From a virus, in the IMG/VR virus record IMGVR_UViG_3300022594_000009, positions 1 to 48,586 of that record: a stretch of DNA of 48,586 nucleotides; one strand, 5' to 3'. Positions 1 to 37,498 of this stretch are shown piece after piece; position 1 is the first letter of the stretch, and each line of letters opens with the position of its first letter. The notes under the pieces are model-generated. The model made no database searches, was not told the DNA's origin, and saw only the letters and a list, made by a program, of their open reading frames with translations. Made by a program: the position numbers and the translations under genes.

Positions 1-614
1 GCCTGTTGAAATTCGCCTTCTAATAAGGTGATACCTCTTTCTAATCCAATTTTCTTAAGATAAGCCGCAGTACTTCTGCTTTCAAAATGCCACATAGGTA
101 CACACGGGATATCCGCAGTTGCTCCAAATGGTACTTTGTTTTCTTTAATAAAATGGTTGGCAAAATATGCTTCTGCACTTGGAATGTTATTGCCAATAAT
201 AGTACGCTGGTATCGTTCTTTTGCACTTTCAGCGGTCATTAACGACATTAGTGTTCCTATAGATAATTCATCTCTGTTTTCTTCAAAGTAGTCAGTCCAC
301 CCATTAAGGTAAGGAGCATAATCAGTTTGCAAAGCATGAATAAATTCTGTGCCAACTCCGTTCCAGTCAGTAAACTTTCCGCCCAGTTTTGGTGTAGCAT
401 TGACTTGGCGAATAAAATCATTAGTGTCAATTTTTAAATGTTTTAATAGCGTTACAAATGTAGTACTACCGCTTTCGCCGGCAATAATTGGAGGACGATT
501 AGGATCTTCAATAACAACAACTTCTGCCTTTGGCCAGTTGCGTCTAACAAACAAAGCAGTTAGCCATCCTGCTGTACCGCCTCCTAATACAACAACTTTA
601 GAATTTGTATACAT
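1..614 (-). CDS. Flavin-dependent (tryptophan-type) halogenase, 3' end outside window
   Basis: About 204 N-terminal residues, read on the minus strand from the ATG at 614 to the window edge without a stop. FAD-binding GGGTAG lies at residues 11-16. A GESGST segment at 46-51 aligns with the GVGEGST of its neighbours. K76 in PKLGGKF aligns with the catalytic lysine of RebH/PrnA (K79). The family uses FADH2, O2 and chloride or bromide to make HOX, which reaches substrate through this lysine. The start overlaps the end of the upstream halogenase by 17 bases, so translation is probably coupled. The C-terminal half, including the WxWxIP and PLE motifs, is not visible. Family assignment is firm; the substrate is unknown and need not be tryptophan. 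Confidence 0.85.
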   Translation of the reverse strand, partial: MYTNSKVVVLGGGTAGWLTALFVRRNWPKAEVVVIEDPNRPPIIAGESGSTTFVTLLKHLKIDTNDFIRQVNATPKLGGKFTDWNGVGTEFIHALQTDYAPYLNGWTDYFEENRDELSIGTLMSLMTAESAKERYQRTIIGNNIPSAEAYFANHFIKENKVPFGATADIPCVPMWHFESRSTAAYLKKIGLERGITLLEGEFQQ

Positions 615-2103
615 GTGCCTTATCTCTTTCTTTAATTATATTCAATGCTTCTCTGTGCGAAAAGAACGTATCATTCTCATCGCTTAACTTAGTTGCTTTC
701 ATAAATCGATCAGTGTCTAATGAGTGCGCCCCCATGTGAGCTTCATATTTTTGTTTGATATATTCGTTATCAAACATACCTAGCCCGTGCATTACTTGAC
801 CAAAATTTAAGAATGAAAATAATATCATAGGTTGATTAAACAAGTTAATGTTTGGATAACCTTTCTTAAAATATTCTAAATATTTTGCATTAAATTCAGT
901 AGGAACAATTTCGTTTTTACACCAACGCCAGAACTCACTGTTATCACGTTTGGTAAAATAATGTAACTGTATAAAATCTACAATATTTTCTGAAATAATT
1001 TTCATATGTTTATTGTAGCGTTCGGCAGTTAGTTCTTCGCCACGTTCATAAAAGAATAAATCAGGCAACAGCATAGATGCTTGTTGAATAGTAGTACCTA
1101 TACTGCTTGCTTCAAGCGGTTCAACAAATATACCACTTAACCCAACCATGACACAATTTTTAATCCAATAGTTTTCTACATAGCCTGCACTAAACTTAAC
1201 TTTTTTGCCAATGCTAAGTGATTTCTCAATACCTAATTTATCTTTATAGTGTTGTGATACTTCATCGTAGGCTTGAGTTTCATTCATAAACTCATCACAA
1301 AACACATATCCATTGCCGTATCGGTCTTGTGTAGGTATGCGCCATACCCATCCACTACTTAATGCAGTCGCTTCCGTGTAGGGAGGTATAACTTCAGTAT
1401 AGTCTGTTGGAAACGCAATAGCACTATTCATAGGTAATTGCTTAGAACAATCAACCCACTTTGCTCCTAACTTGCTACCAATAATTCTTTTAAACCCACT
1501 ACAGTCAACATAAAATTCATAGGCGTGGTGTGTACCTGTTACGTCAACTAACTCTTTAACATATCCATCTTCGTCAAGGATAACATCTTCAACTTCAGTG
1601 TCTATAATTGTAATCTTTCGTTCTTTACACACCCTATGTAAAAAGTCATTAAGTTTATTAGTATCAAAATGATATTGGCTTAGTATGTCATGCACGGGTT
1701 CGATGTGATAACCGTCTTGCGCCTTCTTCCACATAGTGTCCAATGGATCCCAATCCTCGCCAATCATTCGCAACCAGGTAAATGGTAGTCCGTGTACCTT
1801 TGATACTGATCCGTACTGCTCAGATAAACTATGGAAATAGCTTTTTCCATCACCATTCCAATCAGTGAACTTAATACCTATTTTAAATGTAGCTCCAGTT
1901 TCTCTAACTAATGAGAATATGTCAATATCAACATGCCGCATAAACACACGCCAGTGTTCTGTTGAGCCTTCTCCAACCCCGATGATTCCTAATTTTGAAC
2001 TTTCAATCATAGTAATTTTAAGGTTAGGCCACGCCTTACGTAACATTAACGCAGTAACTAACCCGCTAGTGCCACCACCTAATATGCAAACTGAATTAAT
2101 CAT
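598..2103 (-). CDS. Flavin-dependent (tryptophan-type) halogenase
   Basis: 501 residues, the normal length of the family. Visible motifs: GGGTSG (9-14), GVGEGST (42-48), FKIGIKF with K74 at the catalytic-lysine position, WVWRIP (a match to the diagnostic WxWxIP that separates halogenases from monooxygenases), and FVEPLEASS with the glutamate equivalent to RebH E346. All catalytic elements are therefore present. It is the middle gene of three halogenases. Its ATG overlaps the TGA of the preceding gene as ATGA, and its tail overlaps the next start by 17 bases, indicating one operon. No flavin reductase is seen in the window, so FADH2 would have to come from elsewhere. Substrate unknown. Confidence 0.93.
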   Translation of the reverse strand: MINSVCILGGGTSGLVTALMLRKAWPNLKITMIESSKLGIIGVGEGSTEHWRVFMRHVDIDIFSLVRETGATFKIGIKFTDWNGDGKSYFHSLSEQYGSVSKVHGLPFTWLRMIGEDWDPLDTMWKKAQDGYHIEPVHDILSQYHFDTNKLNDFLHRVCKERKITIIDTEVEDVILDEDGYVKELVDVTGTHHAYEFYVDCSGFKRIIGSKLGAKWVDCSKQLPMNSAIAFPTDYTEVIPPYTEATALSSGWVWRIPTQDRYGNGYVFCDEFMNETQAYDEVSQHYKDKLGIEKSLSIGKKVKFSAGYVENYWIKNCVMVGLSGIFVEPLEASSIGTTIQQASMLLPDLFFYERGEELTAERYNKHMKIISENIVDFIQLHYFTKRDNSEFWRWCKNEIVPTEFNAKYLEYFKKGYPNINLFNQPMILFSFLNFGQVMHGLGMFDNEYIKQKYEAHMGAHSLDTDRFMKATKLSDENDTFFSHREALNIIKERDKAHVYKF

Positions 2104-3602
2104 AGTGAGTATTCTATTCCTTTTAATCTCTGTTTGACAAGATCAATAGCTTCTTTATGTTTTATCCGACCCTCTGTAGTCGACCCGTGCATTTGTTTCA
2201 TATTATTTTCACACCATGCTCTATATCTTTGTCCGTATTGTGTTTCATACAGCTCTTTAATTTTAGCAGTATCAAACATTCTTAACCCATGCATAACTTG
2301 TGCCCAGTTTAGACAATCATAAATTCTAAACAAGGACATAGTCCCGTCTTCAGGCAATAATACCTGATTGATAAAATTTGTTTTAAAGTTTTCTAAATTT
2401 TCTTTATTGAACTCTGTCATTTTTATATCGTGTTTACACCAGCGCCAAAACTCTGTATCTTCTCGTTGTGTAAAATAATGTAACTGAATAAAGTCGAGGA
2501 CGTTAAACATCATATCATCAAACACTCGATTGTATTCAGTAATAGTTGCAGTATCATTACGATGCCAATTCCATAGTGCAGAAGCTAATAATCTTGATTG
2601 TTGAATAGTAGTTGAAATACTGCTAGCCTCAAGCGGCTCGACAAAATTACTGCTAAGACCAACGCTAACGCAATTTTTAATCCAAACCTTATTTACTTTT
2701 CCCGATGTAAAGTTAATCTTCCTACCAATGTTGATAGTATTTTTATAATGTGTTTGTATTTCTGCGATTGCTTGATCTTCAGTAATAAATTGATCACTGA
2801 ACACATATCCGTTGCCAAACCGTCCTTGAACGGGACTACGCCACGCCCACCCGCTATCCATAGCCTTTGCTAGAGTGTACACTGGGATGTCATCTTGATC
2901 AGTAGTTTGAAATGCCACTGCACTATTCATTGGTAAGTGTGCTGACCAATCAACCCAAGTAGCACCTAATTTAGACGATATAACTCTTTTAAATCCGCTA
3001 CTATCAATAAAAAAGTCCGCGGCATACTGTTGATTATTAGAGTCAACTATTGATTTGACAAATCCGTCAGAATCTAATATACAATCAACAACTTCAGCTT
3101 CGACAACTTTTATACCACGTGCAACACATAGTTTTTCTAAATATGAATTTAGTTTTTCACTGTCAAAGTGAAACTGATAGTAGTCAGTTAATGGTTCCAT
3201 TACCATATTGTCTTCAAGGACTAGTTTCCAATGCATATCTTCAGCTTTAATGCCATCTGCAATTAATCGCATCAAAGTATGTGTTGCACCAGTATGCGGA
3301 TCCATCCATACAAAGTCCTCCGGCAGGCTGTGATAAAAACTAGTACCGTCGCCGTGCCAGTTTTCAAATTTAATACCAGTTTTAATAGTTGCGCCGCAAT
3401 GCTCGATTAGTTCTATAAAATTAATTCCAACAGCATTGGCAAATCGTGTCCAGTGTTCGGTAGATCCTTCGCCAACACCAATAGTTCCAATCTTATTGGA
3501 CTTAACTAATGTAATATTTAGATGTGGAATAGATGATTTAAGATACAATGCATTCATTAAACCAGCATTGCCGCCACCTAGTACACAAATTGAGTTTATC
3601 AT
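2100..3602 (-). CDS. Flavin-dependent (tryptophan-type) halogenase, variant WxWxIP motif
   Basis: 500 residues, clearly a paralogue of the 598-2103 product. It has GGGNAG (9-14), GVGEGST (42-48), K74 in IKTGIKF and FVEPLEASS. The diagnostic WxWxIP reads WAWRSP: isoleucine is replaced by serine while both tryptophans and the proline are kept. It is the first gene of the minus-strand halogenase operon, with its start only about 80 bases from a divergently transcribed oxygenase. The TGA overlaps the next gene's ATG. Whether the serine change alters activity cannot be judged from sequence. Confidence 0.92.
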   Translation of the reverse strand: MINSICVLGGGNAGLMNALYLKSSIPHLNITLVKSNKIGTIGVGEGSTEHWTRFANAVGINFIELIEHCGATIKTGIKFENWHGDGTSFYHSLPEDFVWMDPHTGATHTLMRLIADGIKAEDMHWKLVLEDNMVMEPLTDYYQFHFDSEKLNSYLEKLCVARGIKVVEAEVVDCILDSDGFVKSIVDSNNQQYAADFFIDSSGFKRVISSKLGATWVDWSAHLPMNSAVAFQTTDQDDIPVYTLAKAMDSGWAWRSPVQGRFGNGYVFSDQFITEDQAIAEIQTHYKNTINIGRKINFTSGKVNKVWIKNCVSVGLSSNFVEPLEASSISTTIQQSRLLASALWNWHRNDTATITEYNRVFDDMMFNVLDFIQLHYFTQREDTEFWRWCKHDIKMTEFNKENLENFKTNFINQVLLPEDGTMSLFRIYDCLNWAQVMHGLRMFDTAKIKELYETQYGQRYRAWCENNMKQMHGSTTEGRIKHKEAIDLVKQRLKGIEYSL

Positions 3603-16226: not shown

Positions 16227-16664
16227 ATGTCCTCAAAATTTGCACGTGGCAAGTTTACAATGACTAGGCCAGAAAAATATGTTGGTAATAAAATGCCCGT
16301 GTACAGATCAAGTTGGGAATGGAGTTTTATGCGATTTTGTGACACTAATGAAAGTGTCCAAAAATGGGCAAGTGAAGCAGTAAATATCCCCTATCGAGAT
16401 CCGCTAACTGGCCGCAACACTATATATGTACCTGACTTCTTTATACAATATGTAGATAAGGTGGGAAAGGTACATATTGAGTTAATTGAAATTAAACCAG
16501 CTAGTCAAGCCATCTTAGAACGTGTGGGCAAGAACAAATATAATCAAGCGCAGTTTGTCAAGAATCAAGCCAAATGGGCAAGTGCTACCCTTTGGTGTAA
16601 ACAGCAAGGTATTAAGTTTCGCATAGTAAGCGAAAATGATTTATTTCACCAAGGCGGAGCATAA
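16227..16664 (+). CDS. gp4: Head completion protein, gp4-like (PD-(D/E)xK fold)
   Basis: 145 residues, T4 gp4 length (about 150). Matches include the start with GKF..RPEKYVGN, YRSSWEWSFMRFCDTNESVQKW, VNIPY, VPDFFIQY and IELIEIKPASQ. D70 and E88-x-K90 form a PD-(D/E)xK nuclease-type centre, in line with the TnsA-like fold of this family. gp4 acts on the packaged DNA end and closes the head. It starts one base after the upstream stop, with no ribosome binding site, and is probably translationally coupled. Followed by gp16. Confidence 0.88.
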   Translation: MSSKFARGKFTMTRPEKYVGNKMPVYRSSWEWSFMRFCDTNESVQKWASEAVNIPYRDPLTGRNTIYVPDFFIQYVDKVGKVHIELIEIKPASQAILERVGKNKYNQAQFVKNQAKWASATLWCKQQGIKFRIVSENDLFHQGGA

Positions 16665-16672
16665 GTAGTATT

Positions 16673-17161
16673 ATGACTAAGAAACTTGAAGAACTTTTAA
16701 ACTTACCTGCTAGTAAAGATATTATCAAAGCAGAAGAAAAAAAGAAGCAAAAAGAGCTATCTAAACCTGAGCCGTTTTTACGCGACATGGCTGAATTTGA
16801 TAAAATTGCAGCCGCATTGCCACAGGTTAAAGGGTTAGGGGATATTGCTGACGGTGAGCTAGATGCACTAGCCCAAAAAGCTCAAGATGCTTATGATGAT
16901 ATTATGGACCTAGGTATGAACGTTGAAGCACGTTATAGCGCACGACTATTTGAAGTTGCTGCCGGTATGCTAGGACATGCTATTGACGCTAAGTCAGCAA
17001 AACTAGACAAAAAATTAAAAATGATTGAGTTACAGCTTAAGAAAGCTAAACTTGATCAAGACGCAAACGGTACAGAAGACCAAGGAATTAACTTAAACGG
17101 CGACGGGTTTATTGTTAGTGATCGTAACAGTTTGCTAGAAAAATTAAAGAATTTGAAATAA
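16673..17161 (+). CDS. gp16: Small terminase subunit, gp16-like
   Basis: 162 residues (T4 gp16: 164). The organisation is conserved: an acidic and lysine-rich N-terminus, a central helical pair (DIMDLGMNVEARYSARLFEVAAGMLGHAIDAKSAKLDKKLKMIELQLKKAK, about 80-125) forming the oligomer core, then a short strand FIVSDRNSLLEKLKN near the end. gp16 rings recognise DNA and stimulate the gp17 motor. CATAAGTA lies five bases before the ATG, resembling the leaderless late pattern, but a purine-rich stretch also precedes it. Confidence 0.8.
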   Translation: MTKKLEELLNLPASKDIIKAEEKKKQKELSKPEPFLRDMAEFDKIAAALPQVKGLGDIADGELDALAQKAQDAYDDIMDLGMNVEARYSARLFEVAAGMLGHAIDAKSAKLDKKLKMIELQLKKAKLDQDANGTEDQGINLNGDGFIVSDRNSLLEKLKNLK

Positions 17162-17182: not shown

Positions 17183-17806
17183 ATGAAATCATACAAAGAA
17201 TATCTAATTGAGAGCAAAAGCACTTACGATTTTAAAGTAAAAATCGCCGGTGATTGCCCTAAAGATTGCACAATGCTAATTAAACGTGGACTATCAAAGT
17301 TTCAAGTTGAAGCTTGCAGTTCAGGAAAAAGTACTCCAATCCAGGAAACTCAAGCAGATTTTCCAAGCCTTAAAAATGTCGGTGTAACAACATTTGATGT
17401 GTCAACAGCATATCCAGCAACCAGCGCAGAAATTGCGGCATTGATTGCAGAGCATACTAGTCTTAGTGTAGGAAGTATTAAAGTACGCAATGAAAAAGAA
17501 TTAGCAGAAGAAGAATTAAATCATGCTAACGATGAAGCAAGCGGAGAATCTTTACTAGAGAAACCAGAGCTTGAAGCTGAAGACGGCCAAAGTCTTGTTG
17601 GTGACAAACATACTATGAGCATGTTAAAAGAATTAACTAAAGCTAAGAAAGAATTAACACAGTATAAAGGTGTTAATGAAAAAATCTTAGCAAAGAAAGC
17701 TCCTAGTGAAAAAGCTGACAAACAAAAAGTAACAACTAACAATACAAGTCCTGTAGGCAGCAGGAAGGTAACATTACCAACAGCAAAAACTGCCAGAGGA
17801 CAATAA
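17183..17806 (+). CDS. Candidate internal head protein with capsid-targeting sequence
   Basis: 207 residues, highly charged, lysine- and glutamate-rich C-terminal half. The start MKSYKEYLIE-S closely parallels the T4 capsid-targeting sequence MKTYQEFIAE, which directs internal proteins (IPs, Alt) into the prohead and is cut after LxE/IxE by the gp21 protease. Here LIE-S fits. After cleavage, about 197 residues would stay in the head and could be injected. It lies between gp16 and gp17. No domain is recognised; a core scaffold protein is the alternative. Confidence 0.6.
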   Translation: MKSYKEYLIESKSTYDFKVKIAGDCPKDCTMLIKRGLSKFQVEACSSGKSTPIQETQADFPSLKNVGVTTFDVSTAYPATSAEIAALIAEHTSLSVGSIKVRNEKELAEEELNHANDEASGESLLEKPELEAEDGQSLVGDKHTMSMLKELTKAKKELTQYKGVNEKILAKKAPSEKADKQKVTTNNTSPVGSRKVTLPTAKTARGQ

Positions 17807-17807
17807 T

Positions 17808-18392
17808 ATGAATTTTCAAGACTTATTAGCAAAAATGAAACATCTTGATGAAGCTCCAGCAATTGAGCCAAAAGATGAACTTCAAGGCGGTGCAGGTGCA
17901 TCTGATGAATGTGAGCCTACTAGTACTCCAGCCGATGCATTATTTGGCGAGCGCAGTATGGAAGAGTGTGGCATGCCAGGCATGGATAACATGCCCCATG
18001 GTATGATGGGCGCACCTAAGCAATCCGATAACGTTAGTATGAACGTTAGCCTAAACGGTCAAGGCGCTGGCGGTGTTCGCGATTTAATGAACATTTTACA
18101 TAATATTGAACAAGGTACTGGCCATGCACACAGCGAACCCGATCATGGTGCTGAAGATGATATTCTTGTTGGTATTGGTGAAGAGCAAGATGACGGCGGA
18201 TTCCAAGATGCTACAACTGAGCCTGATCCAGAAACTCAAGACGTTGATGCGGTAACTCGTACCGGAAATGATATTCACAGCCAAGGTGGAGAAGCTGAAA
18301 AAGTTAACGGCGGTGGTAATCCACTAGGCGTAAGCGAGGCGTTACTTGCTAGATTATCTAGCATGTACACTGAAATTAAAGAAAGTCGCTAA
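17808..18392 (+). CDS. Acidic candidate internal head protein
   Basis: 194 residues, strongly acidic with glycine- and methionine-rich patches (MPGMDNMPHGMMG). The start MNFQDLLAKMKHLDE-AP ends in LxE-A, a possible prohead-protease site. The end (SEALLARLSSMYTEIKESR) is helical. The gene starts one base after the previous stop, with no ribosome binding site, so it is coupled to it. The same function class as the 17183 product is inferred, not shown. Ends at a strong terminator. Confidence 0.55.
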   Translation: MNFQDLLAKMKHLDEAPAIEPKDELQGGAGASDECEPTSTPADALFGERSMEECGMPGMDNMPHGMMGAPKQSDNVSMNVSLNGQGAGGVRDLMNILHNIEQGTGHAHSEPDHGAEDDILVGIGEEQDDGGFQDATTEPDPETQDVDAVTRTGNDIHSQGGEAEKVNGGGNPLGVSEALLARLSSMYTEIKESR

Positions 18393-18429
18393 AGATTGTT
18401 CGTTGCAGTTGGGTAGATTAAGTACCCCA

Positions 18430-18455
18430 AAACCACCCTTCGGGGTGGTTTTTTT
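18430..18455 (+). terminator. Intrinsic terminator before gp17
   Basis: Stem AACCACCC / GGGTGGTT with UUCG loop and seven Ts. The gp17 promoter begins within the T run region, leaving no spare sequence. Confidence 0.92.
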
Positions 18456-18456
18456 A

Positions 18457-18464
18457 TGTAAATA
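18457..18464 (+). promoter_or_regulatory. Late-like promoter, leaderless start of gp17
   Basis: TGTAAATA, then AAGTT, then the ATG at 18470. There is no ribosome binding site because the preceding bases are the terminator. Confidence 0.55.
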
Positions 18465-18469
18465 AAGTT

Positions 18470-20065
18470 ATGGCAAAAAGTTTAGATGGCGTCTTAACCA
18501 AAAAAGCGCATACAAAAGAAAAGTTTAGTGAAGCACAAGTCAATGACTTGTTAATGTGTGCTGACCCCAAAGAAGGGTACATGTATTTTGTTAAAAACTT
18601 TTTTCATATCCAACATCCTACTCGAGGCAAAGTTAAATTTGAACCATTCGAGTATCAAGAAAAATTATTACACAGTTATCATGATTTCCGTTTTAATGTA
18701 AACATGATGCCGCGTCAAAGTGGTAAGACAACATGTGCCGCAGGTTATTTGTTATGGTATGCAATGTTTCATCCAGATCAAACTATTCTAGTAGCCGCAC
18801 ACAAATACACAGGCGCTCAAGAAATTATGCAACGTATCCGCTACGGATATGAATTGTGCCCTGACTATATCAGAGCCGGCGTTACAAACTATAACAAAGG
18901 TTCAATGGAGTTTGAAAATGGATCTCGTATTGTATCAGCAACTACAACTGGCAACACTGGTCGCGGTATGTCAATATCCTTATTATACTGTGATGAGTTT
19001 GCATTTGTACAACCAAATATTGCAGAAGAGTTTTGGACATCTATATCGCCAACACTAGCAACTGGTGGTAAGGCAATTATTACATCTACACCTAACTCAG
19101 ATGAAGATACATTTGCAATTATCTGGAAAGAAAGCCAGGACGCATTTGATGAGTTTGGTAATGAACGTACTGACGATTTAGGTCGCAACGGTTTTCATGG
19201 ATATCGTAGTGAGTGGTGGGAACATCCTGATCGTGATGACAACTGGAAAAAAGTTGAATTAGGACGTATCGGTGAAGAACGCTTCCGTCGTGAATATGGT
19301 TGCGAATTCTTGATCTATGATGAAACATTGATTAGTGCTCTTAAACTTACTGATATGTTAGGTAAAGAGCCTAGCTTTAGAATGGGGCAAATTCGTTGGT
19401 ATAAAAAACCAACTCCTGGCAGCACCTATCTAGTAGGATTAGATCCTAGTTTAGGTACTGGTGGCGACTATGCAGGTATTCAAGTATTTGAGTTGCCTAG
19501 TATGATACAATGTGCAGAATGGCAACACAATTTGACTATTGTACAAGATCAAGTAAAACTGCTTCGCGATGTAATTAGATATATCCAAGATGAAATTGGT
19601 GAGGATTATAATAATAGCATTTACTGGAGTGTAGAAAACAACACGTTAGGCGAAGCCGCGTTAGTGGTAATTGCTAACTTAGGTGAAGAAACATTTCCGG
19701 GATTATTTTTAAGCGAGCCTGTACGTAAAGGGCATGTTCGTAAATTCCGTAAAGGATTTAACACAACACATGGTAATAAAATATCAGCTTGTAGTCGTTT
19801 AAAGTATTTTATTGAAGAAAATAAAATGACAATTAATAGTAAATCATTAATTAGCGAGCTTAAAACGTTTATTGCCTCGGGTGTTACTTTTAAAGCTAAA
19901 GACGGGCAACATGACGACCTTGTTAGTGCGCTACTACTAATTGTACGCATGACCGTTATTTTAGCAGAATGGGATCCGGCAATTTTTGAGAAACTAAGCA
20001 TCGAATCTGCCCTAGACGACGATTGGGAAGCACCGTTGCCTATATTTGTTTCCAGCAACCTATGA
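18470..20065 (+). CDS. gp17: Large terminase subunit, gp17-like packaging motor and nuclease
   Basis: 531 residues (T4 gp17: 610). ATPase half: PRQSGKTT (81-88) is the Walker A with the terminase-type Q/R, LLYCDEFAFV (171-180) is Walker B with catalytic Glu, and TSTPN (206-210) is the coupling motif. Nuclease half: VGLDPSLGTGGD (D325) and, near residue 490, HDDLVSALL supply the RNase-H-like acidic residues. It translocates DNA into the prohead and cuts the concatemer. It is preceded directly by a terminator and late promoter, and the stop overlaps the possible early start of the next gene. Confidence 0.97.
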   Translation: MAKSLDGVLTKKAHTKEKFSEAQVNDLLMCADPKEGYMYFVKNFFHIQHPTRGKVKFEPFEYQEKLLHSYHDFRFNVNMMPRQSGKTTCAAGYLLWYAMFHPDQTILVAAHKYTGAQEIMQRIRYGYELCPDYIRAGVTNYNKGSMEFENGSRIVSATTTGNTGRGMSISLLYCDEFAFVQPNIAEEFWTSISPTLATGGKAIITSTPNSDEDTFAIIWKESQDAFDEFGNERTDDLGRNGFHGYRSEWWEHPDRDDNWKKVELGRIGEERFRREYGCEFLIYDETLISALKLTDMLGKEPSFRMGQIRWYKKPTPGSTYLVGLDPSLGTGGDYAGIQVFELPSMIQCAEWQHNLTIVQDQVKLLRDVIRYIQDEIGEDYNNSIYWSVENNTLGEAALVVIANLGEETFPGLFLSEPVRKGHVRKFRKGFNTTHGNKISACSRLKYFIEENKMTINSKSLISELKTFIASGVTFKAKDGQHDDLVSALLLIVRMTVILAEWDPAIFEKLSIESALDDDWEAPLPIFVSSNL

Positions 20066-20071
20066 TAAATA
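20064..20071 (+). promoter_or_regulatory. Late-like promoter before the 815-residue virion protein gene
   Basis: GATAAATA overlapping the gp17 stop region, followed by TAAC and the ATG at 20076. Spacing is four rather than five bases; no ribosome binding site. Confidence 0.5.
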
Positions 20072-20075
20072 TAAC

Positions 20076-22520
20076 ATGAACTCTAATTTAGACAAAATTG
20101 CTAAAGACCTGTACGGTAAGATACAAACCCGTTTTCAGAACATTAAAATTGGTGATGAAAACGCCACTGTTTTAAGTAAAAAGGAAGATATTCCACATGC
20201 TCGATTCTTTGAATTTGAGTATGAAGAAGGTGGGGAACCACTAGGAACTATCGCTATTACTCTTGATGCTGAAGACGGTGTGGTTGTGCAAGTTAGTGGA
20301 GATCTTGTAAACGATGACGATGAAACTACTCATCACGGCGCTTATAAATTCATCCGTAGCTTTAGACAATTTGCTAAAGATAGACTGCTTAACTTTGATG
20401 TGCAAAACATCGGTAAAAGCAATATGGACAAAAGAGATTATCAGTTTCAGGCGAAACGCAAGGAAGAACCAGTTATGGCACAAGCTCCAATTATGGAAAA
20501 CAAGATGTACGGCAATGCCCGTATGAGCTACCAAGATTTAGGCGAAGCTCGTTTAGTAGTTAAACATAGCCAGCCTATTAACTTAGAGCTACCAGCAGGC
20601 AGAACAATGCACATTGAAAACATTTACATTGAAAATGCCGTAGGAGAACGTTTCCGTTATCCATTTAAACATTTAAACGGTGCTCGTGCATTAGCAGAAC
20701 ACATCAAGGCAGGCGGCAATCCATATGATGCTATTGGTAAACATATTTGTAGTTTATCCGAAGAACTAGCAAGCCTACGTAAGTTTAAAGGTTATGTTAA
20801 TCGTCAAGAACAATTATCAGAAGCAATGAGCAACGTAACAAGTCGTGTTATGGAACGCATTGAAGAAATTAAAAAGACAGTACAACAATTACAGCGTCCT
20901 GCATACTATCAAGCATTTGCAGAATCATTTGAAGCACAAGAAGAACAAATGCTTCCAGAAGAAATTGTTAATGACCTTATTGATCGTTTGACAATTCGTA
21001 CATTTAATGAAGAATTAAAATCAGTATTCCCATTCATTGCTAAATTTGTTGATGAATCAGAGTTGCCAGTATTAGAAATTGGCGCAGATGACATCCTAGG
21101 TGAAAAAGAAGGAAACTTTACTACTCATAAAGGCGGCAAGGTATCATATAAAGACGGTGTTACCCGTCATGAGAAAACAGATTACGACAACGGTGAAGGC
21201 CCTGAATTGGGATATGCAATAGCTAAGTCTCAGGGCTCAAGACACAGCAAAGCGCACCTTGATCACGATGCAAACGATAGGCCAAATTTTAAACACCCAG
21301 AAGATCAATTTGAGTCTTTCATGGATGATCTTATCCGTGAAGATAGAGATGAAATCTTTAGTCCTAACAAAGATGCACAAAATGCCGCTATTGATCAATT
21401 GAATAAGATCATGGATAAAGAATTAAAGGGCGGCCCTGAAGGTGTTAATGCTATTGAAAGTTTAAAGGGTCTAATTGATGACCCAGAATTTTTAGATAGC
21501 TTGCGTGACATTGATCCAGACTTAGATGTTCGCCCATTGATTCAACAATATGTAACACTAGCAGATCCTAGTGTTGCTACACAATTACATTTTGGTGGTG
21601 ATACGTCAGAAGGTGGCGAAGAAGAAGCTCCAGTTCCTCCGCCGCCAGCACCTGCTCCAGAAGCTCCGCCTGCACCTGCTCCAGATGCATCAGCAATGGC
21701 AGCACCTCCAGAGGCAGTGGCTGCTCCAGGCGCACCGGCAGAAATGCCACCAGAGGCTGCTCCGGCCCCAATAGCAGAAAGCATTTTAAATGCATTACGT
21801 AAAGCATCTAAAGCAGGCGCAACATTAGAGACACAATTAGATTTTGGTCATGGCACTAAGACTATTGCTGAAATTATTGCTGAATGCGGTATGGAACCAC
21901 AAGATGTTGGTTACGAGCAAGAAGGCAATGGCTTAGAGGATATGTTAAAGTTTGTCAGCGGATTCTATAATAAAGATGAAGGCAACTTCCCTTTAGGTGG
22001 TATGCGTGTTAAAATCAAAGTTAAGAAAGGTTTTGAAGATGGGCAGTTTGGTAATGCTAGTGAAGAAGACTTAATGAAAGTTCTTAAGTTTATTGATCAC
22101 AAAGATCCAAGCGGCGACGAGCAACATAATGTATTGCGACTAGCTGGTGTTAAAACTCCAGCACCGCACGATCATGAAGTTGATGAAGGCGGTGAAATGC
22201 CTGATTTTGGTTCAATGATGCAACAGATGCAACAGCAGTTAGGACAAATGCAAAACAATCCTAACGGACAATCTGCATCACCTACTGCACCACAAATGAA
22301 ATTTAGAATGCCTAAATTTGGTGATGACGACACTGATGATGGCGAAATTGATTTTAACAATCCAGACGATATTGGTCAAAGAATGCAAAAGAAAATTGGC
22401 GGAGTGTTTAATAAAATGCAAGGCCAGGTACCTAATCAGAACGTTCAATTCCCAGGCGGGCAAATGAACCCTGCAGACATGATGAAACAAATCATGCAAA
22501 AAATTAACTTTGGGAAATAA
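20076..22520 (+). CDS. Large conserved phage protein, probable virion or head-associated
   Basis: About 814 residues from the ATG at 20076 (MNSNLDKIAKDLYG); an in-frame ATG at 20046 lies inside gp17 and upstream of the promoter. It has no recognised enzyme motif. Regions: N-terminal beta domain (to ~110), a segment with YQDLGEARLVVKHSQPINLELP (~150) that I associate with conserved marine T4-like phage proteins, a helical part with coiled coil (VTSRVMERIEEIKKTVQQLQ), an Ala/Pro/Glu linker (~510-565), then a glutamine- and methionine-rich end. The low-complexity linkers suggest a virion component. It follows gp17, with the next gene two bases away. Confidence 0.75.
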   Translation: MNSNLDKIAKDLYGKIQTRFQNIKIGDENATVLSKKEDIPHARFFEFEYEEGGEPLGTIAITLDAEDGVVVQVSGDLVNDDDETTHHGAYKFIRSFRQFAKDRLLNFDVQNIGKSNMDKRDYQFQAKRKEEPVMAQAPIMENKMYGNARMSYQDLGEARLVVKHSQPINLELPAGRTMHIENIYIENAVGERFRYPFKHLNGARALAEHIKAGGNPYDAIGKHICSLSEELASLRKFKGYVNRQEQLSEAMSNVTSRVMERIEEIKKTVQQLQRPAYYQAFAESFEAQEEQMLPEEIVNDLIDRLTIRTFNEELKSVFPFIAKFVDESELPVLEIGADDILGEKEGNFTTHKGGKVSYKDGVTRHEKTDYDNGEGPELGYAIAKSQGSRHSKAHLDHDANDRPNFKHPEDQFESFMDDLIREDRDEIFSPNKDAQNAAIDQLNKIMDKELKGGPEGVNAIESLKGLIDDPEFLDSLRDIDPDLDVRPLIQQYVTLADPSVATQLHFGGDTSEGGEEEAPVPPPPAPAPEAPPAPAPDASAMAAPPEAVAAPGAPAEMPPEAAPAPIAESILNALRKASKAGATLETQLDFGHGTKTIAEIIAECGMEPQDVGYEQEGNGLEDMLKFVSGFYNKDEGNFPLGGMRVKIKVKKGFEDGQFGNASEEDLMKVLKFIDHKDPSGDEQHNVLRLAGVKTPAPHDHEVDEGGEMPDFGSMMQQMQQQLGQMQNNPNGQSASPTAPQMKFRMPKFGDDDTDDGEIDFNNPDDIGQRMQKKIGGVFNKMQGQVPNQNVQFPGGQMNPADMMKQIMQKINFGK

Positions 22521-22522
22521 TT

Positions 22523-23233
22523 ATGAATAACAATTTTAAAGGTCTACGTCATTACATTGACATTATTAGTGAAGCCGCAGTAGTGTCAGGTGATGGCACT
22601 CCAGTAACTAGCGGTGCTGGCATACCAGTAACTAGCGGAGCACCGGCGGCTGCACCTGCTGGCGCAACAGCAAGTGGTAGTGCTAATCCTTGGGAAGGTA
22701 AAGATCCTGCTAAGGCAGCGGCCTGGGCAAAGTTAAGTCCAGAGGACCAAAAATGGTTAGGCGGAGCAGATCCAACTGATACAATTATTTTACAACGTGC
22801 TCCAAATAAAGGTGCGGCCCCTGCGGCACCAGCAGGAACACCAGTAGCTGATGCTGTTAAAGCAAGTGGTCAGCCAGATGATGCAACCGGTGTAGACGCG
22901 GCAGTTGCGGCACAAGCTGATAACAGTGGCGCGGCACCAGCGGCAACAACTAATTTTGACAGTATGCCATTTGGTAAAGCATTCCAAACAGCACAAGCTC
23001 AAGGATTGAAACAGTTTACTTGGAAAGGTAAACCATATGCTGTGCAAGCTAAAGGATCACAGGCAGCTAAGCCAGCAAAACCTGCAAGCCCAACTGCTAT
23101 GAAAGCGGCCGGTGCAGGACAAGCCGGTGTAGTAAACCCAGATGGTATGAACTTTAACCAAATGAGCGCAGAAAGTGTTGCTTACGGAGAAGATCAAACT
23201 TTAGCACGTATTGTTGAATTGGCAAGACGATAA
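22523..23233 (+). CDS. Ala/Pro-rich protein with possible capsid-targeting start
   Basis: 236 residues, rich in Ala, Pro, Gly. The N-terminus ends in HYIDIISE-AA (IxE-A), a possible gp21-type cleavage site, as in the two proteins before gp17. Around residues 150-175, FGKAFQTAQAQGLKQFTWKGKPYAV matches a short module (F-A-G-F-W-G-K-Y) seen, from memory, in marine phage virion proteins. No enzyme motif. It ends with an intrinsic terminator that isolates it from gp32. Confidence 0.6.
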   Translation: MNNNFKGLRHYIDIISEAAVVSGDGTPVTSGAGIPVTSGAPAAAPAGATASGSANPWEGKDPAKAAAWAKLSPEDQKWLGGADPTDTIILQRAPNKGAAPAAPAGTPVADAVKASGQPDDATGVDAAVAAQADNSGAAPAATTNFDSMPFGKAFQTAQAQGLKQFTWKGKPYAVQAKGSQAAKPAKPASPTAMKAAGAGQAGVVNPDGMNFNQMSAESVAYGEDQTLARIVELARR

Positions 23234-35915: not shown

Positions 35916-36029
35916 ATGAAAAAAATAATTGACATTTTAACTTACCCTTGGCGCAAGTTTCAAGAGCGACAAGCATTTAAAAAGCGTATGGAAAAGCTAC
36001 GCCAACAAGATCCGTTTATCTACAAATGA
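35916..36029 (+). CDS. 37-residue conserved basic protein
   Basis: 37 residues: MKKIIDILTYPWRKF... ending in RQQDPFIYK. Below the usual size cut, but the start and end patterns (K-x-K-x-K-R-M-x-x-L-R-x-x-D-P-F-I-Y) match a small gene I recall beside replication genes in cyanophages. Starts five bases after the oxygenase stop, and its TGA overlaps the next ATG (ATGA). Amphipathic and strongly basic; function unknown. Confidence 0.6.
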   Translation: MKKIIDILTYPWRKFQERQAFKKRMEKLRQQDPFIYK

Positions 36030-37498
36030 TTACCTGGGGCATATCAGCAAATAGTCACGATGCGGCACTTGCCGTATTTCTTGACGAGAAATTGGTGTTT
36101 GCAAGCCATAGTGAACGATTCAGCGGAGTTAAGAACGATCGCGATTTAGACTTGAAAATGATTGCTTATGCCAAGCAACGCTTTGGTGGTGCTCCTGATC
36201 GAGTTGTTTGGTATGAGCAACCTTTCAAGAAAACCTTAAGACAGTTGTGGGCTGGACAAGGCTGGAAAAAACGTGATAATGACATCGAAATTTACATGGC
36301 ACGTTATGAAATTGATGCACCTATCGAATACGTTAGTCATCACCATAGTCATGCCGCGGCAGGCTATTATACTAGCGGATTTGATGATGCATGTGTGTTG
36401 GTCATAGATGCAATTGGTGAATTTGAAACTATGACTATATGGAAAGGTCAAGGCAATGAATTGACAAAATTGTGGAGTAAAAGTTATCCACATAGTATAG
36501 GATTGTTTTATAGTGCTATGACACAGCGCATTGGTCTTAAACCTAATGAAGATGAATATATTACTATGGGCATGGCGGCATACGGCCGTAGAGATTTATT
36601 TCATTCGATGCTTACCGACATTGTAGATAGTTTTGAAAAGTTTACTTTTAAGAAGAATTTACACAGGGGTTGCCTCGATTGGCGCCCAGAGTTAACAGTT
36701 AAAGATAGTTTTGAAATTGCGGCAAGTACGCAGTATGTATATGAACATTACTTCATAGAGGCATTAAGAAAAGCAGAAAAAATAAGTGGCAGTAAGAACT
36801 TAGTGCTTATGGGCGGTTGTGCGTTAAACTGCCTAGCCAACAGACATACTGGCGATTTCTTTGATAACACGTGGATAATGCCCAACCCGGGAGATGCAGG
36901 CAGTGCCATAGGCTCCGTGTTATCAAAACACCCTAACTGGCGAATTGAACCGAAGTATTTTACTCCGTTCCTTGGCTATGATATGGGAAGTCGTACTAGT
37001 AATGAAGAGATTGTTAACTATTTAGAAGACAATCAAATATGCGGACTAGCTAGAGATAAAGCAGAATTTGGTCCTAGAGCATTAGGCAACAGAAGTTTAT
37101 TAGCAGATCCTCGCGGACAAGATATAAAGGATAAAGTAAATGCAATCAAACAACGACAAGAATTTAGACCCTTTGCTCCAGCAATACTCGAAGAGCTTGT
37201 GGATGAGTACTTTGATATGCCTCGCACTTGGGATAATAGTAGGTATATGCAGGTGGTCGCTCATTGCAGGAATCCTGAGCGTTATCCTGCCATTGTGCAT
37301 CGTGATGGAACTTCACGTGTACAAACTGTACCGAACGATGGAAGCCCGTTTAGAAAACTCCTAGAGTTGTGGTATGCTCGAACAGGGTGTCCAATGCTGT
37401 TGAATACGAGCTTGAATATTAAAGGACAGCCAATGGTTAATGACCATGCAGATGCTAAAAACTTTGAACGCCACTATGGTGTTAAAGTGTTTAATTAA
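36026..37498 (+). CDS. Carbamoyltransferase, NodU/CmcH family
   Basis: 490 residues. N-terminal Kae1/ASKHA-like domain: WGISANSHDAALAVF, the metal/ATP motif HHHSHAAAGYY (H105-H109), and VLVIDAIGE. C-terminal domain: EFGPRALGNRSLLADPR and LNTSLNIKGQPMVN, both family hallmarks. The family uses carbamoyl phosphate and ATP to carbamoylate hydroxyls of antibiotics, Nod factors and related sugars. In phages the target is unknown; hydroxylated bases made by nearby oxygenases or glycans are possibilities. Coupled to the 37-residue gene. Confidence 0.9.
   Translation: MITWGISANSHDAALAVFLDEKLVFASHSERFSGVKNDRDLDLKMIAYAKQRFGGAPDRVVWYEQPFKKTLRQLWAGQGWKKRDNDIEIYMARYEIDAPIEYVSHHHSHAAAGYYTSGFDDACVLVIDAIGEFETMTIWKGQGNELTKLWSKSYPHSIGLFYSAMTQRIGLKPNEDEYITMGMAAYGRRDLFHSMLTDIVDSFEKFTFKKNLHRGCLDWRPELTVKDSFEIAASTQYVYEHYFIEALRKAEKISGSKNLVLMGGCALNCLANRHTGDFFDNTWIMPNPGDAGSAIGSVLSKHPNWRIEPKYFTPFLGYDMGSRTSNEEIVNYLEDNQICGLARDKAEFGPRALGNRSLLADPRGQDIKDKVNAIKQRQEFRPFAPAILEELVDEYFDMPRTWDNSRYMQVVAHCRNPERYPAIVHRDGTSRVQTVPNDGSPFRKLLELWYARTGCPMLLNTSLNIKGQPMVNDHADAKNFERHYGVKVFN

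Follow-up and report, generated by a model that had tools for sequence, protein, structure and literature searches.

Leader-bearing, probably head-interior proteins encoded around the terminase gene of an uncultivated myovirus related to PA5oct/RaK2/121Q jumbo phages

In T4, capsid targeting sequences are 10–19 residues long and are cut at L/I-x-E (PMC9026906). Three genes around the large terminase gene of an uncultivated virus begin with leaders that resemble these sequences, which raises the question of whether their products are packaged into the head, trimmed there, and perhaps injected into the host. The window, i.e., the whole stretch of 48,586 nucleotides analyzed here (IMG/VR record IMGVR_UViG_3300022594_000009), is a 48.6-kb virus fragment that contains a myovirus head and tail block in the order sheath, tubes, gp4-like head closure, TerS-like, gene A, gene B, TerL, gene C, gene D, SSB, and UvsX. 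The genes from head closure to gene D described below all lie on the plus strand. A head closure/completion protein (TnsA-like, T4 gp4-like; 16227–16664) is followed by a TerS-like terminase small subunit (16673–17161; PHROG 445, E 4e-7), which lies just upstream of gene A (17183–17806; 207 aa). The leader of gene A, MKSYKEYLIE (17183–17212), has a predicted cut before S11. The protein encoded by gene B (17808–18392; 194 aa) is conserved in a central segment and at its C-terminus; its leader, MNFQDLLAKMKHLDE (17808–17852), is predicted to be cut before A16, and the Ala/Pro/Gly/Ser-rich product of gene D (22523–23233; 236 aa) has the leader MNNNFKGLRHYIDIISE (22523–22573) with a predicted cut before A18. 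The gp17-like terminase large subunit gene TerL (18470–20065) is flanked by these three leader genes, gene D standing one gene further out, past gene C (20076–22520; 814 aa), which belongs to the PHROG 13484 virion structural protein family and has PA5oct gp278 and CBB_276 as counterparts. A first-pass annotation had singled out the same three open reading frames and leaders as flanking gp17, and both the genes and the predicted mature starts at S11 and A16 were reproduced in this study; the third start, which it had put at A20 or so, is predicted at A18.

The cut motif is not rare in a single sequence, as [LIVM]xE[ASGN] with E at residues 8–24 is present in seven of the 48 window open reading frames, and relatives were examined because this is near chance. 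At least 390 IMG/VR stretches are related to gene A. Among 63 distinct sequences of its family, 62 have E at P1 and 62 have L (59) or V (3) at P3, while P2 drifts (T32, I15, V6, L5, M3) and P1′ is S54, N7, or G2. The leader itself was among the patterns used to fetch these relatives, the other search motif being QETQxDF. Eight family sequences fall outside the leader pattern; E10 is kept in seven of them, the exception being PA5oct, and six of these seven hold QETQxDF. The first search, performed without the leader pattern, gave the same leader result. For gene B, [LIV]xE at residues 9–26 was identified in all 60 distinct relatives and is directly followed by [ASGN] in 52 of them, compared with a shuffled mean of 5.1/60 and, for four further stretches of these proteins, 0/60 in three and 5/60 in the remaining one. 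In both families, conservation of the motif exceeds what chance would give. The three leaders (10, 15, and 17 residues) are within the length range of T4-type sequences, and those of genes A and B are conserved in relatives.

In several distant relatives of gene A, the P1 glutamate is gone, the site reading LTD in RaK2 and Kaldavass, YDA in PA5oct, and LSS in Phosso. Judged from these sequences, cleavage at the leader site is not universal across the relatives, because several distant ones lack P1 E. In T4, D at position 10 stops processing and leaves targeting intact (PMC9026906), and since P1 is D in RaK2 and Kaldavass, targeting may be a more general role of the leader than cleavage. The leader of gene A is predicted to be helical at residues 4–11, and the structural model contains a ferredoxin-like domain at approximately residues 15–102 (pLDDT ~75–87; 67.9 for the whole model) with a low-confidence tail. 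Its PDB matches (GlnK, S6, ACT/HMA-like; Z <8) were taken to reflect a common fold only, and no function was assigned from them.

No gp21-type protease, major capsid protein (MCP), or scaffold was found in the window, a 48.6-kb fragment that may miss them. An S77 (gp21-type) protease is encoded in 10 of 13 long related records, including all those of at least 100 kb, and also by PA5oct, so that the lack of a gp21-like protease, which the first-pass annotation had named as grounds for rejecting its reading, does not apply to the relatives. The S77 match of G002 (L018; G002:C1:45330-45707) holds one in-frame TAA, which may represent a sequencing error, an interruption, or decay. The MCPs of four related contigs contain KYL(M/V/Q)E followed by S at the T4-type position before "..LPVIRR", a position from which MCP cleavage at this site would be expected; the corresponding site is LVE followed by N in PA5oct and LRE followed by S in CBB. 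The site of the gene A family, EYL(I/V/T)E followed by S or N (LVE followed by N in some relatives), matches this MCP site of the clade.

A leader matrix based on seven leader positions of the gene A family only was used to score the 882 proteins encoded by four related contigs and the window. Its top five hits are members of the gene A family, and the next are gene D-type proteins of G008 (16.8 bits; MMEHKSFREYIQLVE then S) and G007 (9.2 bits; MKSIHEYIKLVE then A), which are otherwise unrelated to gene A and rank first and second among the 877 other proteins. The same leader is therefore present on unrelated proteins. Gene D of the window ranks 12th at 6.4 bits. Chance alone would give 2.8 matches scoring at least 6, and the sharing of the gene A family leader by gene D is suggestive only.

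Profile A3 of gene A identified homologues in PA5oct, Phosso, Vibrio 2.275, slurp01, and Kaldavass, and a tblastn search with the slurp01 homologue found 45 records, including 121Q, RaK2, GAP32, and CBB. The order sheath, tube, head closure, TerS, and gene A is shared by PA5oct, slurp01/121Q, CBB, RaK2, Kaldavass, and Vibrio 2.275. Both profile homology and gene order place gene A, and only gene A, in the PHROG 14802 virion structural protein family together with CBB_210, 121Q gp557, and PA5oct gp282, although the cut motif is not kept in all members of this group (e.g., RaK2 and PA5oct). CBB_210, the orthologue of gene A, was detected in CsCl-purified virions, where 13 unique peptides covered 60.5% of it, and CBB_213 and CBB_276, which occupy the positions of genes B and C, were also detected in CBB virions (PMC5259590). 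ESI-MS/MS notes accompany PA5oct gp282, gp281, and gp278 in a list that also includes the non-structural SSB and UvsX. PHROG and Pfam searches with gene B gave nothing, and the profiles of its family matched no named phage; with the CBB_213 group it shows a weak hhalign match (probability 30%), and profiles find nothing. Because the homology between CBB_213 and gene B is weak, virion residence holds for the orthologues of gene A only. The phAPEC6 protein gp270c was considered as a further gene A orthologue on the basis of gene order and was set aside because its listed mass of 16.2 kDa is too low.

In this uncultivated myovirus, a relative of the PA5oct/RaK2/121Q jumbo phages, the products of all three genes are probably head-interior proteins of the prohead core, targeted by their leaders and trimmed in the manner of T4. 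The first-pass annotation proposed capsid targeting and processing in T4 style, and this is supported by the leader on unrelated proteins, the MCP-like site, the S77 protease in relatives, and the presence of gene A orthologues in virions, from which we infer targeting, actual cleavage, and the position inside the head; any ejection is likewise inferential. Each protein would be made with an N-terminal leader of 10–17 residues, which would carry it into the assembling prohead; a gp21-type S77 protease would then cleave at (L/I/V)xE, on the C-terminal side of the E, as part of the maturation step that also trims the MCP, and the mature protein would be left inside the capsid with the DNA. Genes A and B would belong to the conserved set of head and packaging genes, and gene D would be a variable slot that takes other cargo and contributes a C-terminal helix similar to that of the scaffold.

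The alternative that fares best, although we regard it as unlikely, is that the three proteins are assembly-only core or scaffold components, which would bear leaders, be cut, and be largely lost from the mature head. Among T4 core proteins, gp67 and gp68 are processed by gp21 (PMC9026906) and, with gp22, would resemble the window proteins as prohead core substrates of that protease; the gene B product is small, acidic, and of low complexity, and the tail of gene D resembles that of the scaffold of its own clade. However, the mature T4 head is largely cleared of core fragments (PMC9026906), whereas CBB_210, at the coverage given above, and the PA5oct counterparts stay in mature virions.

Less probable still is that the three proteins are injected effectors like the T4 internal proteins (IPs), packaged by their leaders, delivered with the DNA, and acting against host defences, which was the role favored by the first-pass annotation. 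The window proteins are similar to IPI–III and Alt in their short leader with L/I-x-E before a small residue, in the occurrence of one leader on unrelated proteins, in the gp21-type protease of the clade, and in the expected head residence. In addition, phrog_2667 ("internal head proteins") matches the N-terminal part of the gene A family (best E 0.0014), gene A has a structural match to Ip7 of phage MX01 (E 3e-3) that we judged too weak, and gene D is variable and cargo-like. The phrog_2667 matches in T4, however, span 14 leader residues only, and profile A3 has no match in T4 or MX01, so that for gene A no sequence homology to the T4 IPs beyond the leader was found with these two profiles. 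T4 IPs are basic (PMC9026906), not highly conserved, and non-essential (PMC9026906; PMC12373910), and they are accessory and patchy, whereas genes A and B lie beside the terminase genes, are conserved with shared gene order across many jumbo-phage contigs, and encode neutral (pI 7.6) and very acidic (pI 4.2) proteins, respectively. No anti-defence homology was found in searches that did not extend to the padloc library. The best supported reading is that the system works like T4 capsid targeting and that gene A is not itself a T4 internal protein. For genes A and B, the claim of ejected anti-defence effectors is accordingly not upheld, and their conservation and synteny argue for a structural or DNA-organizing head role instead of an arms-race one, with the inner body as one candidate location.

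Evolutionary rates point only in part to the fast evolution that had been claimed for all three genes. Relative to TerL, dN is approximately 1.5–3 times as high for gene A, which is thus only moderately quick, compared with 2.5–6 times for gene B and 3.5–10 times for gene D (two pairs only for the latter), both of which do change fast. Throughout the three genes, dN is clearly below dS, which is near saturation, and nothing points to positive selection.

As improbable as injected effectors is a permanent docking role of the N-terminal helix (e.g., on portal or terminase), with the LxE likeness reflecting helix constraints and not cleavage: the leader genes adjoin TerS and TerL and distant relatives retain a similar helix without E, but variation is seen at P2 and not at P1 (E) or P3 (L/V), the P1′ residue remains small, and YLxES is also present at the MCP processing position.

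Within the head-interior reading, gene D is the one place where injected cargo holds up as plausible. Leader and body both vary among gene D-type proteins, the leader often ending in (I/L/V)xE before A or S, and gene D of the window is patchy in distribution and near neutral in charge. Positional relatives in L060 and L056 match PG_binding_1, a peptidoglycan-binding domain, at or above the Pfam cut-off; the Pfam search did not find this match in gene D of the window. These two proteins (L060:15888-17858 and L056:11474-12634) combine a leader, the PG_binding_1 match, and a LAG-type C-terminal helix. A sub-threshold dCache_3 match of gene D itself (E 0.0065; PHROG and Pfam searches) was taken as chance.

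Gene D further differs from the T4 IPs in its helix-like C-terminal tail GEDQTLARIVELARR (23186–23230), which resembles the scaffold C-termini of related phages: I(V/I)DIR(R/K)LAGL in four related contigs, VEELRRLAGIK in PA5oct, and FLNEISRNAGISKNR in CBB. The scaffold-like C-terminal pattern occurs in 11 of the 882 proteins against approximately 0.8 expected, a count that is partly circular because the pattern was drawn partly from counted proteins; the 11 comprise four scaffolds, gene D of the window, three relatives of gene C or gene D, and three others. The LAG motif anywhere in a protein is near shuffled levels in G006 and G007, and it is the C-terminal position that stands out. Any function of this helix is a guess. 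In L034 (L034:9299-10102), the segment SFDDAFRQARKAGQKQFTWKGKSYTT, which is similar to one in gene D, recurs at the end of a basic phage protein that otherwise differs; the segment may represent a short mobile module.

Very T4-like leaders are also present outside this locus, with 10 in G006 and G007 against 0.05 expected in shuffles. In G007, six genes with T4-like leaders, five of them consecutive, lie within 7.1 kb (L144; G007:C1:594-7669), with leaders such as MRYREFLLE then S, MRFKEFLIE then A, and MKINEIISE then A. One of these proteins has HTH DNA-binding matches and most are without a known family; compared with the three window genes, they are the stronger candidates for cargo that is packaged or injected. 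The number of strict T4-like leaders in PA5oct is too small for an enrichment test among MS-detected proteins. A broader and rather doubtful possibility is that head cargo in this jumbo-phage clade bears two independent targeting signals, namely a T4-type leader at the N-terminus, which is cleavable, and, at the C-terminus, a copy of the scaffold tail helix (L..I..LAG-K/R), and that the swappable slot beside the terminase and leader-bearing multi-gene arrays elsewhere form the inner body and the injected protein set.

The ejected and inner-body proteins of phiKZ, SPN3US, and 201phi2-1 are similarly located in the head interior and trimmed after E by a gp21-related protease, but their rule is S/A-x-E and the proteins are different. 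The 121Q-type phage phAPEC6 contains an inner-body rod; its authors identified no components of the phiKZ kind for it, and they report that none of the phiKZ inner-body proteins is similar to a protein of phAPEC6; the gene A family and other leader-bearing proteins are candidates for this rod. The reading proposed here would extend T4-type capsid targeting to a large jumbo-phage group and offer a sequence rule for spotting head-interior proteins. Provided that the tags function, they could serve to flag proteins that are packaged, and perhaps injected, in genomes that consist mostly of unknown genes.

Several other features were observed in the window and its relatives. In L013 (L013:9300-13488), TerL is split over open reading frames, with a GIY-YIG/NUMOD3 homing endonuclease-like open reading frame between the N- and C-terminal terminase parts and an intein-like sequence recognized by eye, which resembles a split-intein arrangement. 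At 598–3602 on the minus strand of the window, two full tryptophan halogenase genes (Pfam E 6e-101 and 4e-102) lie side by side with a similar partial halogenase open reading frame (3–635, minus strand). A carbamoyltransferase with both Pfam domains is encoded at 36026–37498 on the plus strand.
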